Positions 45,500-49,113 of a stretch of 64,000 nucleotides of DNA are shown here, piece by piece. The notes under the pieces were generated by a model. The model did not search any database. It saw only the letters and a program-made list of their open reading frames with translations, and was not told the origin of the DNA. The position numbers and the translations under genes are program-made. Origin of the DNA: Bradyrhizobium arachidis (GTDB taxonomy: Bacteria > Pseudomonadota > Alphaproteobacteria > Rhizobiales > Xanthobacteraceae); assembly GCF_024758505.1 (NCBI RefSeq), contig NZ_CP077970.1, positions 1,798,001 through 1,862,000 of the forward strand. Reading direction: 5' to 3'. Numbering within the stretch: the stretch's first letter is position 1; each line of letters begins with the position of its first letter.

Positions 45500-45814
45500 C
45501 TACTCGATCCCCTGTTCACGTGCCTTCCTCATCGCAGCAATGCGAAACCGCTCGTGGATAGCGACGGGATTGCCGAGCATATCGGCCTCGGCCCTATTTA
45601 AAGCCGCGAGAACGAGCGTCGCTTCCTCGCGTGTCAGCGGGACGCGGCCAGCCATGTGAGTGGCCTCGGGCACTGTGGCCAAAATTGCTCGGCGATATGG
45701 ATGATCCTTGACTTCGATGAGCTCGTCAGTTTCGAGCCTGCCCCCAAGCATGATTGCGAGCCCAACTACCTCAAGCTTGCGGCCGTCCTGAGTGGTCTTG
45801 ATCAGAGTTGCCAT
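45500..45814 (-). CDS. conserved-looking protein of unknown function in the nif region
   Basis: A 104-residue protein from the ATG at 45814 (MATLIKTTQDGRKLEVVGLAIMLGG). It is compact and mixed alpha/beta in composition, with no cysteines, signal peptide or membrane segment. The open frame extends to 45874, but upstream residues are not protein-like. I know of similar small genes in Bradyrhizobium nif regions but no assigned role. No RpoN promoter was seen in front. Confidence 0.65.
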   Translation of the reverse strand: MATLIKTTQDGRKLEVVGLAIMLGGRLETDELIEVKDHPYRRAILATVPEATHMAGRVPLTREEATLVLAALNRAEADMLGNPVAIHERFRIAAMRKAREQGIE

Positions 45815-46328
45815 TTCATTCAGTCTCCTACGCGGCAAACCAGTATAGCGAGCATGATCACGGAGTCGCGTCACGGCTCGGTCGGAGTTTTAGGTGGGGA
45901 GTCCTCTTTTCAGACCGCGCAATAATCCGCCCCGAAGCGTGACGCGCCTGTGGCGCAGATCCGCTTTTGAAAACTGCCTGGGACCACAGCACCAAGTCGG
46001 ACGGTTTGCTTAAGGCCAGCAACGCGAATCTAGTCGTGTCAAACAGAAGGCGCACCGGCGCTTCACACATTTAAGCACTCGCTCTTTCGACGCGACAAAA
46101 ATATCGGCATCGCGAAACCTGGACACGGACGGGCATTTTCGTCATCAGGCCGCTCCAGCCAGCCGTCTTCAGTGACGAACTTGAAATGGCAAGTTGCACC
46201 AGGGCAGCTTGCGCGCTTGGAGATTTTACAGTTTCGATCTCGTGCTTGTTCCAGCCCAGCGGAAAATTGCAATGTCACGCCCACGAGCTTGGCAGCACGA
46301 GAGCAGCGGAGAAATCTGACCCGATACC
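45815..46328. other. stretch with one doubtful small frame
   Basis: A 73-residue minus-strand frame (46063-46284) contains five cysteines (CKISKRASCPGATCHFKFV and others) and ends in a plausible tail. It could be a small metal-binding protein, but support is weak. Otherwise nothing recognised. Confidence 0.35.
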
Positions 46329-46919
46329 TTAGACAGGGCGGTTCTCGTTGCGGTTCTTCACTGGCTTCATCTTAGCGAGACCTTCCTCGTAGGAGAGTTC
46401 GGCATAAGATGCGTCGACGTTCTTGGCAGCGTCGAGCAGATAGTCGAGCTTGCCGGCAGTATTTAGCTTCTTGATGTCGTTCTTGTCGACTCCAGCAAGA
46501 TCCATCATCTCCTTCCACACAGTCGACTCGTCACATGGCAGCACGCGGAACGTGATGTCACCGATCTTGGTACGGTATTTTGCCGATAGATCGATGTTGT
46601 TGCAGAACATGAAGTATCTGCCCTTCTGGCTCAATGCGCCGTCCAACACTCTTGCGACATCGGCAAGATAGGCAAAAGAATGCAGGTAGCCGGCCAGTAC
46701 CGGGATCGCTGTCTCTCCCTCGTCTGCGACAGTCAATACCTGCTCGACCGAATAGTCGGGCGGACGCTTCTCGTCGGCAACCTGAGTCTGGAACTTTAGC
46801 GCGATATCGCCGCGGAAGCCGAAGCGGCCGGGCTTCGTGGTCTCGCCCTTAAGCACTGCATTTAGCAAGCGGCCCTCCTTGTCCAGCCGGCCAAGAACGG
46901 TGTTGTCGATGGACGTCAT
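46329..46919 (-). CDS. unrecognised NifA/RpoN-controlled protein
   Basis: A 196-residue cytoplasmic-looking protein that starts MTSIDNTVLGRLDKEGRL behind GAGGAGGACTTC. The composition is ordinary, with conserved-looking runs GRFGFRGDIALKF, VLAGYLHSFAYLADVARVL, FMFCNNIDLSAKYRTKIG and FRVLPCDESTVWKEMMDLAGVD. It has two cysteines and no signal peptide or membrane segment. A -24/-12 promoter lies at 47001-46985 and a NifA site farther upstream, so it is almost certainly made with nitrogenase. I do not recognise the family. The longer open frame to 47435 crosses the promoter and is rejected. Confidence 0.8.
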   Translation of the reverse strand: MTSIDNTVLGRLDKEGRLLNAVLKGETTKPGRFGFRGDIALKFQTQVADEKRPPDYSVEQVLTVADEGETAIPVLAGYLHSFAYLADVARVLDGALSQKGRYFMFCNNIDLSAKYRTKIGDITFRVLPCDESTVWKEMMDLAGVDKNDIKKLNTAGKLDYLLDAAKNVDASYAELSYEEGLAKMKPVKNRNENRPV

Positions 46920-46984
46920 GAAGTCCTCCTCGTTTGATGGGGCCGGCGCAGATGTCGCACCGCGTGAACTCACCTTGCCATCTA

Positions 46985-47001
46985 TGCAAATTGTTTGCCG
47001 G
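46985..47001 (-). promoter_or_regulatory. RpoN -24/-12 promoter (minus strand)
   Basis: Minus-strand CCGGCAAACAATTTGCA: GG and GC ten bases apart, with TTTGCA at -12. It lies about 65 bases before the start of the gene at 46919. Confidence 0.75.
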
Positions 47002-47113
47002 CTTCCCACGCCCGCAGCACAGTCAGCGGCAATCCTTCGTCTGTGCTTAAGTAGACAAGCGTGTCCGGCAGCGCGAAGATCACGACAATCTCTTCCCAAG
47101 CAGCAAACCCCTG

Positions 47114-47129
47114 TGTCGCAATCCCGACA
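47114..47129. promoter_or_regulatory. NifA upstream activator site shared by divergent units
   Basis: TGTCGCAATCCCGACA, an exact TGT-N10-ACA. It stands 113 bases from the minus-strand promoter and 61 bases from the plus-strand promoter and so can serve both. Confidence 0.8.
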
Positions 47130-47189
47130 GCTTCGCAACGCTAACAGGCGAGATCGGCAAAAGCCCAGCTCTGTCAGGAGCACGATTGT

Positions 47190-47205
47190 TGGCATGGGAC
47201 TTGCC
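47190..47205 (+). promoter_or_regulatory. RpoN -24/-12 promoter of the iscA-nfu-nifS unit
   Basis: TGGCATGGGACTTGCC: GG and GC ten bases apart, 48 bases before the iscA start. A 15-base direct repeat GACTTGCCAAACCCA (47198-47212 and 47218-47232) overlaps it and probably arose by local duplication. Confidence 0.8.
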
Positions 47206-47253: not shown

Positions 47254-47574
47254 ATGATTAATCTGACAGAGAGCGCGGAAAACGCGGTGAAGAGCGCGAT
47301 TTCAACGGCAGCGCAGCCTGCGAGCGGCTTGCGGATAATGGTCGAAGGTGGCGGCTGCGCCGGGTTCAAGTACACGATGGGACTTGCCGATGCGCCGAAG
47401 CCCAACGATACCGTGATCGAGCGGGGGGGCATCAAGCTGTTTATCGACTACAACAGTCACGAGCATCTTGCCGGAACCACGATCGATTTCGTGGTGGCGC
47501 TCGAGGGCTCTGGTTTCACCTTTGACAATCCCAACGCAAAGTCGAGCTGCTCATGTGGCAAGTCATTTAGCTAA
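47254..47574 (+). CDS. IscA/HesB-type Fe-S assembly protein, nif-linked
   Basis: A-type carrier for Fe-S clusters, 106 residues. It has the conserved GLRIMVEGGGCAGFKYTMGL (first Cys) and the C-terminal SSCSCGKSF (last two Cys) that bind iron or clusters. The start at 47254 follows GAGGGAAAGC; the longer frame from 46837 runs through the promoter. It is the first gene of a unit devoted to Fe-S supply for nitrogenase, followed by nfu-like and nifS. Confidence 0.95.
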   Translation: MINLTESAENAVKSAISTAAQPASGLRIMVEGGGCAGFKYTMGLADAPKPNDTVIERGGIKLFIDYNSHEHLAGTTIDFVVALEGSGFTFDNPNAKSSCSCGKSFS

Positions 47575-47610: not shown

Positions 47611-47904
47611 ATGCTCGTCGAGACTCAACAATCAAGACAATTGGCCACCAAAGAGTCTTCCGGACGGGAGCGGATCGTCCGCGCCGTGCTCGACGAAATC
47701 CGGCCCAATCTGAAGCGTGACGGCGGGGATTGCGAGCTTATCGGCATCGATGGCAACAAGATCATGGTCAAGCTCACAGGCGCCTGCCTCTTCTGCAAGC
47801 TCGCAAGTGTGACCCTGGAAGGCATCCAGGCGCGGTTGATCGAAAGGCTAGGCGAGTTTGTCCGCCTGATCCCGGTTGCGGGATCTGCCAGAGCCGAACA
47901 CTAA
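47611..47904 (+). CDS. NifU C-terminal-domain (Nfu-type) Fe-S scaffold
   Basis: A 97-residue protein corresponding only to the C-terminal Nfu domain of NifU (VLDEIRPNLKRDGGDCELIGI and CLFCKLASVTLEGIQ with the CxxC that holds a [4Fe-4S] cluster). The N-terminal IscU-like and central ferredoxin-like domains of full NifU are absent. Fe-S scaffolding therefore seems shared between this protein and the IscA-like neighbour. It ends 12 bases before nifS. Confidence 0.93.
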   Translation: MLVETQQSRQLATKESSGRERIVRAVLDEIRPNLKRDGGDCELIGIDGNKIMVKLTGACLFCKLASVTLEGIQARLIERLGEFVRLIPVAGSARAEH

Positions 47905-47916
47905 GGAAGACGCACC

Positions 47917-49113
47917 GTGCGGCCGGTTTACCTGGACAATAACGCGACCACACGCGCGGATCCGTCCGTCGTCGCGGCGATGTTGCCATTTTTCTCCGAG
48001 CAGTACGGCAATGCCTCCTCCGCGCATGCGGTGGGCAGGCAGGTCGCGGAAAGCATAAGAGGCGCGCGCAGGGGCGTGCAGGCGCTGATCGGTGCGGCCT
48101 TTGATCACGAGGTCGTCTTTACCTCAGGCGGCACCGAATCGGACAATACCGCGATTCTCTCGGCGCTTGCTGTGCAGGAGCAGCGCGACGAGATCGTCAC
48201 CACAGCTGTGGAACATCCCGCCGTGCTGTCCCTTACAGACGAGCTCGGCCGACGCGGCACCAAATGCCATCTGATACCTGTCGATTGTGCCGGCCGACTC
48301 GACATTGACGCCTATCGCCGCGCGTTGTCCCCACGTACCGCGGTTGCCTCCGTCATGTGGGCCAATAATGAGACCGGCACGATCTTTCCGGTCGAGGTCC
48401 TCGCCAAGATGGCGCGCTCCGTCGGCGCACTCTTCCACACTGATGCGGTGCAGGCTGTGGGGCGAATTCCGATCGACGTAAAGACGACAGAGATCGACAT
48501 GCTGTCGCTTTCTGGCCACAAGCTGCATGGTCCAAAAGGCATTGGCGCGCTCTATGTACGCAAAGACACCAAGTTCAGGCGGCTGATCTTCGGCGGCCCG
48601 CAGGAGCGCCGTCGGCGTTCCGGCACCGAGAACGTGCCCGGCATCATTGGGCTGGGTAGGGCTGCAGAGCTTGTTGCTGCAGAGCTCGGACGGGGGCGGA
48701 TGAAAATCGCCGCCCTGCGCAATCGGTTGGAGCAAGGCGTCCTGGAGCTCGGCAATTGCGTGGTGCTCGGCGACCAAGAGGACCGCCTGCCAAACACATC
48801 AAACATCGCCTTTGAACATCTGGAAGGTGAAGCAATCACTCATCATTTGAATCGCGCCGGCGTTGCAGCGTCCCTGGGATCTGCCTGTAGGTCTGGCTCT
48901 ATGGAGCCGTCGCACGTGCTGCGCGCAATGAACGTACCCTCGGCCTGGTTGCGCGGCGCGGTCCGCTTCTCATTGTCTCGCGAGACCACGAGCGAGGAGA
49001 TCGATCGTGTCCTTGTTGTGCTCCGGAAGATCATTACGAAACTGAGAGGGGCATCATCTGGGGGGCTAGAGCGCGCAAGGTCTATTTCTCGATTCAATGA
49101 GTCTGTCCGATGA
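47917..49113 (+). CDS. nifS: NifS, cysteine desulfurase
   Basis: PLP enzyme that takes sulfur from cysteine for Fe-S clusters of nitrogenase. The 398 residues include VYLDNNATTR at the N-terminus, GGTESDN, the PLP lysine in LSLSGHKLHGPKG, RSGTEN and the active cysteine loop SACRSGSMEPSHVL. It starts at GTG 47917 with AAGGAAGACGC upstream. The stop overlaps the nifT start (ATGA at 49110-49113), indicating coupling. Confidence 0.97.
   Translation: MRPVYLDNNATTRADPSVVAAMLPFFSEQYGNASSAHAVGRQVAESIRGARRGVQALIGAAFDHEVVFTSGGTESDNTAILSALAVQEQRDEIVTTAVEHPAVLSLTDELGRRGTKCHLIPVDCAGRLDIDAYRRALSPRTAVASVMWANNETGTIFPVEVLAKMARSVGALFHTDAVQAVGRIPIDVKTTEIDMLSLSGHKLHGPKGIGALYVRKDTKFRRLIFGGPQERRRRSGTENVPGIIGLGRAAELVAAELGRGRMKIAALRNRLEQGVLELGNCVVLGDQEDRLPNTSNIAFEHLEGEAITHHLNRAGVAASLGSACRSGSMEPSHVLRAMNVPSAWLRGAVRFSLSRETTSEEIDRVLVVLRKIITKLRGASSGGLERARSISRFNESVR

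Follow-up and report, generated by a model that had tools for sequence, protein, structure and literature searches.

The closest described relatives of the gene considered here are bll1754 of Bradyrhizobium diazoefficiens and Bphy_7752 of Paraburkholderia phymatum, both NifA dependent and both without an assigned function in the published passages covered here. Among known nitrogenase guards, the systems that invite comparison are FeSII (Shethna protein II), a nif-linked O2-tolerance protein of conformational protection in Azotobacter (described in the part of PMC11301756 covered here), and the DraT/DraG switch-off system, which acts on dinitrogenase reductase. Here, we describe a gene encoding a 196-amino-acid (aa) protein, referred to as the target, in a 64,000-nucleotide (nt) stretch of Bradyrhizobium arachidis DNA (the window; contig NZ_CP077970.1) whose nif cluster is Bradyrhizobium-type. 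Its homologs are referred to as the target family, to which bll1754 is assigned by position and strand and Bphy_7752 by sequence.

The target family is real, strongly conserved, never named, and switched on together with nitrogenase, and the membership of the target in the nif program is well supported. The first line of evidence lies in published expression tables, each covered in part. In nodules of a P. phymatum nifA mutant, Bphy_7752 (BPHY_RS38250), which is verified as a relative by its 51% sequence identity to the target, shows a log2 fold change (log2FC) of -11.54, the lowest number in the table portion concerned and its final numeric entry (PMC8305402). We equate bll1754 with the target because it is the divergent neighbor of blr1755/iscN; its value in a B. 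diazoefficiens nifA mutant is log2 -4.8, in a table that gives no value for nifH (PMC4926349). Under microoxia, the bll1754 protein has a log2FC of +6.2, and columns that we take as transcript data give a 5.5-fold change in microoxia and a 120.9-fold change in bacteroids (PMC6515984). Both bll1754 and the adjacent blr1753, annotated as Rieske-type, are among the nodule genes with changed expression (PMC8632152). NifA dependence already stands in these tables, without comment in the portions covered; the new contribution here is to describe the family, the conservation of its control, and the module proposed below.

The second line of evidence is the promoter region between the target and the divergent genes iscA, nfu, and nifS (Table 1). 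For sigma54 sites, promoter statistics within the window were not decisive: those with up to two mismatches number 32 against 29.4 expected, which is not above chance. TGT-N10-ACA motifs number 17 against 8.1 expected. We therefore relied on conservation across the best 80 of 460 relatives from a scan of genome contigs, all from Bradyrhizobium or Bradyrhizobiaceae and carrying 75 distinct upstream sequences, and scored each sigma54 site by its matching bases out of 12 consensus bases. The target-side -24/-12 site scores at least 10/12 in 79 of these 80 loci and at least 9 in all of them, compared with 3.0% of random 220-bp stretches scoring at least 10/12. On the other strand, the iscA-side site scores at least 10/12 in 76/80, and in 67/80 loci a NifA-type upstream activating sequence (UAS) lies at a distance of 67 to 80 bp from the -24 element of that site. 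The iscA gene is divergent and upstream of the target in 77/80 loci, and two of the three exceptions hold too little upstream DNA. An additional 25 loci were scanned over 250 bp (L159 to L161 are from the genus of the window; L116, L160, and L161 overlap L021 and L060 of the 80 loci). A same-strand site of at least 10/12 is present in 16 of them, including the distant relatives L103 to L107, and six score 9; L103 to L106 carry two UAS each. No site scoring at least 9 was found in L098, L099, and L101, of which L098 and L101 sit inside operons.

A preliminary description, made from the window alone, had placed the target in the fixation program on the strength of its own -24/-12 promoter and a NifA site also serving iscA-nfu-nifS. 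Conservation bears out the promoter, and conservation together with spacing supports the predicted common NifA site; the NifA-dependent expression of Bphy_7752 and bll1754 upholds the placement as a whole. The same description had called the gene well formed, and this holds as well. Although the mechanical open reading frame extends upstream as far as a TTG at 47435, the start in Table 1 follows a Shine-Dalgarno sequence, the coding sequence (CDS; 588 nt) is intact in 81/81 sequences (the window and the 80 loci, 76 of the latter distinct), and the ratio of nonsynonymous to synonymous substitution rates (dN/dS) against 10 relatives is 0.06 to 0.18.

Table 1. Target gene, its control region, and adjoining features (positions in the window).
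Feature	Position	Strand	Remarks
Likely remnant of a 153-aa gene, found in relatives on the far side of the Rieske gene	46063..46284	-	Compare L116:10580-11041
Target CDS, 196 aa	46329..46919	-	No named family in Pfam or NCBIfam
Shine-Dalgarno AGGAGG	46925..46930	-	5 nt ahead of the target ATG
sigma54 -24/-12 site of target	46985..47000	-	CGGCAAACAATTTGCA, 2 mismatches
Second TGT-N10-ACA	47042..47057	n/a	Second UAS here only in L010 and L011 of the 80 loci
NifA-type UAS TGT-N10-ACA, the conserved one	47114..47129	n/a	Counterpart of the UAS found in 67 of the 80 loci
sigma54 -24/-12 site of iscA-nfu-nifS	47190..47205	+	TGGCATGGGACTTGCC, 1 mismatch
IscA/HesB-type gene, divergent neighbor	47254..47574	+	PF01521, TIGR00049
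NifU C-terminal (Nfu) domain gene	47611..47904	+	PF01106
nifS cysteine desulfurase	47917..49113	+	TIGR03402 above cutoff

With the target as a query, 2,030 of 2,430 candidates match at an E value of ≤0.01. A Methylococcus member retrieves 1,835/2,061, and a query from a distant clade, to which Mariprofundus belongs, retrieves 437/586; the two clades form one family, since hhalign aligns them with probability 100 over 183 columns. Named carriers are alpha-, beta-, and gammaproteobacteria, with Zetaproteobacteria in the distant clade. The preliminary description could name no family for this protein, and neither can we: no match of the window protein to Pfam, NCBIfam, or PADLOC passes an E value of 0.1, 33 family members match no Pfam family (best E value, 0.11), and the Methylococcus member, a distant member, and a paralog come nowhere near a cutoff in NCBIfam. 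Profile searches of solved chains returned no convincing relative and no ferredoxin. Several weak matches were taken as chance, namely PF13653 (E value, 0.23) and other subthreshold Pfam and NCBIfam matches, and sequence matches to the solved chains 5af2 VP3 (E value, 0.015) and 6r5g (E value, 1.7).

An AlphaFold2 model was made for each clade, and both are confident (pLDDT 90.5 and pTM 0.87; pLDDT 92.4 and pTM 0.88). Neither has a Foldseek match in the PDB at an E value of ≤0.001, a library of viral structures gave nothing at that threshold, and structural matches of both models have VIA Z scores of at most 3.5. We noticed no nif protein in the lists of structural matches, an absence that excludes nothing, and neither the profile nor the structure searches produced a match to a characterized nif protein. 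McrC and other PD-(D/E)XK nucleases appear repeatedly high in the structural lists, which raises the reading of the target as a degenerate nuclease-like domain of this type (McrC/Can2-like). We regard this as very improbable: unrelated folds reach the same levels, all scores are at a level at which a common arrangement alone could account for a match, and unrelated rows for the second model have the same Z. No ExK signature, for which no tool search was made, was recognized among the invariant residues. Those residues are R36, P54, G77, E137, and K150 across 80 combined sequences, with D49 and K157 kept in 79/80. Columns conserved in at least 95% of the sequences of alignment A1, A2, or A3 contain no Cys or His, and neither residue attains 60% conservation in any column; a role as an Fe-S scaffold or carrier or as a ferredoxin is disfavored for this reason.

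The family tracks nifH. Among 398 genomes of the phylum of the window, the family occurs in 13, all of them among the 40 genomes with nifH at an E value of ≤1e-70 (hypergeometric P = 1.5e-14, with genomes that are not independent). Among 198 genomes of the family of the window (Xanthobacteraceae in GTDB), the target occurs in 30, of which 24 have nifH over the cutoff and 6 only truncated nifH matches. The third sample comprises 300 genomes of the order of G437, a member of the phylum sample; we take this order to be Burkholderiales. Here, 33 of 36 target-positive genomes have nifH. The remaining three are two fragmentary assemblies (G606 and G726) and a genome whose sole match to the target family is partial, covering 44 residues (G652). 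In the Xanthobacteraceae, 21 of 22 nifH-positive, target-negative genomes have an additional near-full-length match to the nifH model at about 190 to 233 bits, presumably BchL/BchX, and the 22nd genome is 58% complete; no such extra match appears in target-positive genomes of this sample among the matches listed. A link to non-phototrophic, oxygen-exposed life, drawn from this family, was downgraded because G437 is Photo_RC positive yet carries the target.

A recurrent companion in the 80 loci is a Rieske [2Fe-2S] gene (PF00355). It lies tail to tail with the target in 59/80 loci, 13 to 53 bp from the end of the match in 56 of these 59. Beyond it, relatives encode a conserved 153-aa protein with no Pfam or NCBIfam match (L116:10580-11041). 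The paralog of the target (34 to 39% identical), which is separated from the nif copy by at least 367 kb or resides on a different contig, also pairs with a Rieske gene. In 11 of the 12 paralog loci (L147 to L158), this gene immediately precedes the paralog in the same orientation; in the remaining one, L149, a flavin amine-oxidase-like gene adjoins the paralog instead. In 9 of the 11, several of which are near-identical, the 300 bp preceding the Rieske match contain a sigma54 site of at least 10/12. A Rieske gene is also paired with the target in Methylococcus (target-Rieske) and in L129.

Thirty loci of the order of G437 were examined, most spanning about 1.5 kb on either side of the target. 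They contain trHb2 (8), draT (8), draG (7), or any of these (14); a divergent nifH (11); a Rieske gene (1); and a divergent nifS-like gene, about 41% identical (2). Neither iscA nor nfu was recognized in any of the 30. A plasmid search gave 10 records, of which 5 were examined for gene context. The Methylococcus plasmid has the order response regulator-truncated hemoglobin-target-Rieske, divergent from nifHDK; the Paraburkholderia aromaticivorans plasmid has truncated hemoglobin-target-ankyrin, divergent from nifH; and on the P. phymatum plasmid the divergent genes are nifHDK instead of iscA. The target is near nifH, with or without intervening genes, on the Methylococcus and P. phymatum plasmids. 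On the plasmid of Bradyrhizobium sp. 187 it is divergent from iscA, and on that of Cupriavidus taiwanensis it lies between transposases with no nif gene within 6 kb. In L101, a distant member adjoins an LRV_FeS protein near mod-type transporter genes.

We tentatively favor a reading in which the target is a cofactor-free accessory protein specific to the nif program and belongs to a module for redox or O2 protection or regulation of nitrogenase. Neighbors that encode Rieske proteins, O2/NO-binding globins, and ADP-ribosylation enzymes, coexpression with nitrogenase, and the lack of metal ligands of its own fit a protein-binding component of such a module best. The mechanism is drawn from gene neighborhood, and from it we infer both the protective or regulatory role and the physical partners, as well as the new nif-associated function that the preliminary description had proposed. 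RNA polymerase with sigma54, together with NifA, would transcribe the target from the promoter region common with iscA-nfu-nifS. The product, predicted to be an alpha/beta domain with no conserved set of Cys/His metal ligands, probably acts by binding partners because it has no such set. Candidate partners are nitrogenase or its regulators and, in genomes that encode one, a small Rieske [2Fe-2S] protein. The module would most likely protect or tune nitrogenase under changing oxygen, NO, or redox conditions.

Several observations weigh against this interpretation. A whole-genome search for the Rieske protein in the genome of the window found no match, while six of six comparison genomes match; DRAT was likewise not found in the genome of the window, so neither partner is obligatory. 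The target is under purifying selection although this genome shows neither gene. None of the 59 Bradyrhizobium Rieske genes has a sigma54 site of at least 10/12, and 5 of the 30 loci of the order of G437 have no recognized neighbor. The target goes along with nifH, whereas nifH also occurs without the target: 27 of the 40 nifH-positive genomes of the phylum sample, 22 of 52 in the family sample (all 22 with nifH over the cutoff), and 12 of the 45 with nifH over the cutoff in the order of G437 have no target match, which indicates that the target is dispensable for fixation as such. The sole Photo_RC-positive genome among the 40 nifH-positive genomes of the phylum sample (G437) has the target, and Photo_RC occurs in 0/27 of those that are target negative. 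The table of PMC6515984, in the portion covered, leaves bll1754 unmarked as a target of NifA and RpoN1, as it does nifS, nifT, and nifW. The open-licence literature searched yielded no biochemical, mutant, or interaction data for the family.

The shared regulatory region with a divergent iscA in 77/80 Bradyrhizobium or Bradyrhizobiaceae loci could instead mean that the target helps IscA, Nfu, and NifS to assemble the Fe-S clusters supplied to nitrogenase. The target is divergent from iscA-nfu-nifS in L110, L111, L113, L115, L116, and L117, from the family of the window, and in L100, from its class, and the two nifS-like genes in the order of G437 fit this role too. We nevertheless consider it quite improbable because Cys and His are not conserved and because iscA and nfu were recognized in none of the 30 loci of that order, where nifH, trHb2, or draT is found nearby instead; moreover, a Rieske gene accompanies the paralog that lies beyond the nif cluster. 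Another idea is that the target is an accessory component of the DraT/DraG system, with which it shares operons in some loci of the order of G437. The order draT-target-draG was seen in L131, L137, L139, L140, and L142, and trHb2-target-draT-draG in L098 and L123. azo0536 of Azoarcus BH72, likened to the target by gene order and a family member only by guess, is downstream of draT (in the part of PMC8467165 covered here) and has RpoN and NifA sites (likewise PMC3916325). DraT/DraG differ from the target in that neither it nor the family members scanned match DRAT (PF07357) or ADP_ribosyl_GH (PF03747). This reading is unlikely in view of the window's own family, in which DRAT is present in 3/30 target-positive genomes, and thus not found in 27 including that of the window, compared with 19/22 target-negative, nifH-positive genomes (Fisher P = 4.5e-8, uncorrected for relatedness and with genera clustered).

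It is also conceivable that the target works with an electron donor of the Rieske type in a reaction that consumes O2 or NO, such as reduction of truncated hemoglobin, and does not act on nitrogenase. Pairing with Rieske genes both within and beyond the nif cluster points this way, as does trHb2 near the target in 8 of the 30 loci of the order of G437 and adjoining it on the Methylococcus and P. aromaticivorans plasmids. However, trHb2 is matched in only 2 of 101 sequences (the window, the 80 Bradyrhizobium-type loci, and 20 others), and the genome of the window keeps the target yet shows no such Rieske gene, so that this explanation is doubtful. As for FeSII, it can be likened to the favored protective module only as a candidate that works in a similar way; the Rieske partner is, like FeSII, a [2Fe-2S] protein. 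FeSII itself is an adrenodoxin-type ferredoxin, whereas the target family has no conserved cysteines.

A bolder form of the protective reading, which we hold to be rather unlikely, is that this unnamed family, possibly with a new fold, would form with the Rieske protein (and, by lineage, trHb or DraT/DraG) a third post-translational guard of nitrogenase beside FeSII and DraTG. The Rieske protein would sense O2 or redox state and its cofactor-free partner would relay the signal to nitrogenase; outside the nif cluster, under sigma54-type promoters, the same pair would serve another enzyme. If the target does protect or tune nitrogenase against oxygen or redox stress, it would be a component so far lacking for the transfer of nitrogen fixation to other hosts; its candidate partners are specified precisely enough for direct testing. 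As it stands, a nif-linked family found across several proteobacterial classes, with one relative among the genes most strongly lost without NifA in nodules, has no Pfam or NCBIfam entry.

The genome of the window has a single target match at an E value of ≤0.001. Some other Bradyrhizobium genomes carry a second copy, as in G105 (contig C125, at 7017 and 34980), and CCBAU 51765 has copies at two chromosomal places. Elsewhere in the window, a SIR2_2-domain protein (PF13289; 49334-50197, + strand) with weak similarity to ThsA defense profiles is encoded between nifT and nifB, and SIR2 relatives occupy the same interval in L110, L111, L113, L115, L116, and L117. A conserved gene of about 104 aa with no Pfam or NCBIfam match over the cutoff (45500-45814, - strand) is found in 28 of the 101 sequences, including the window.
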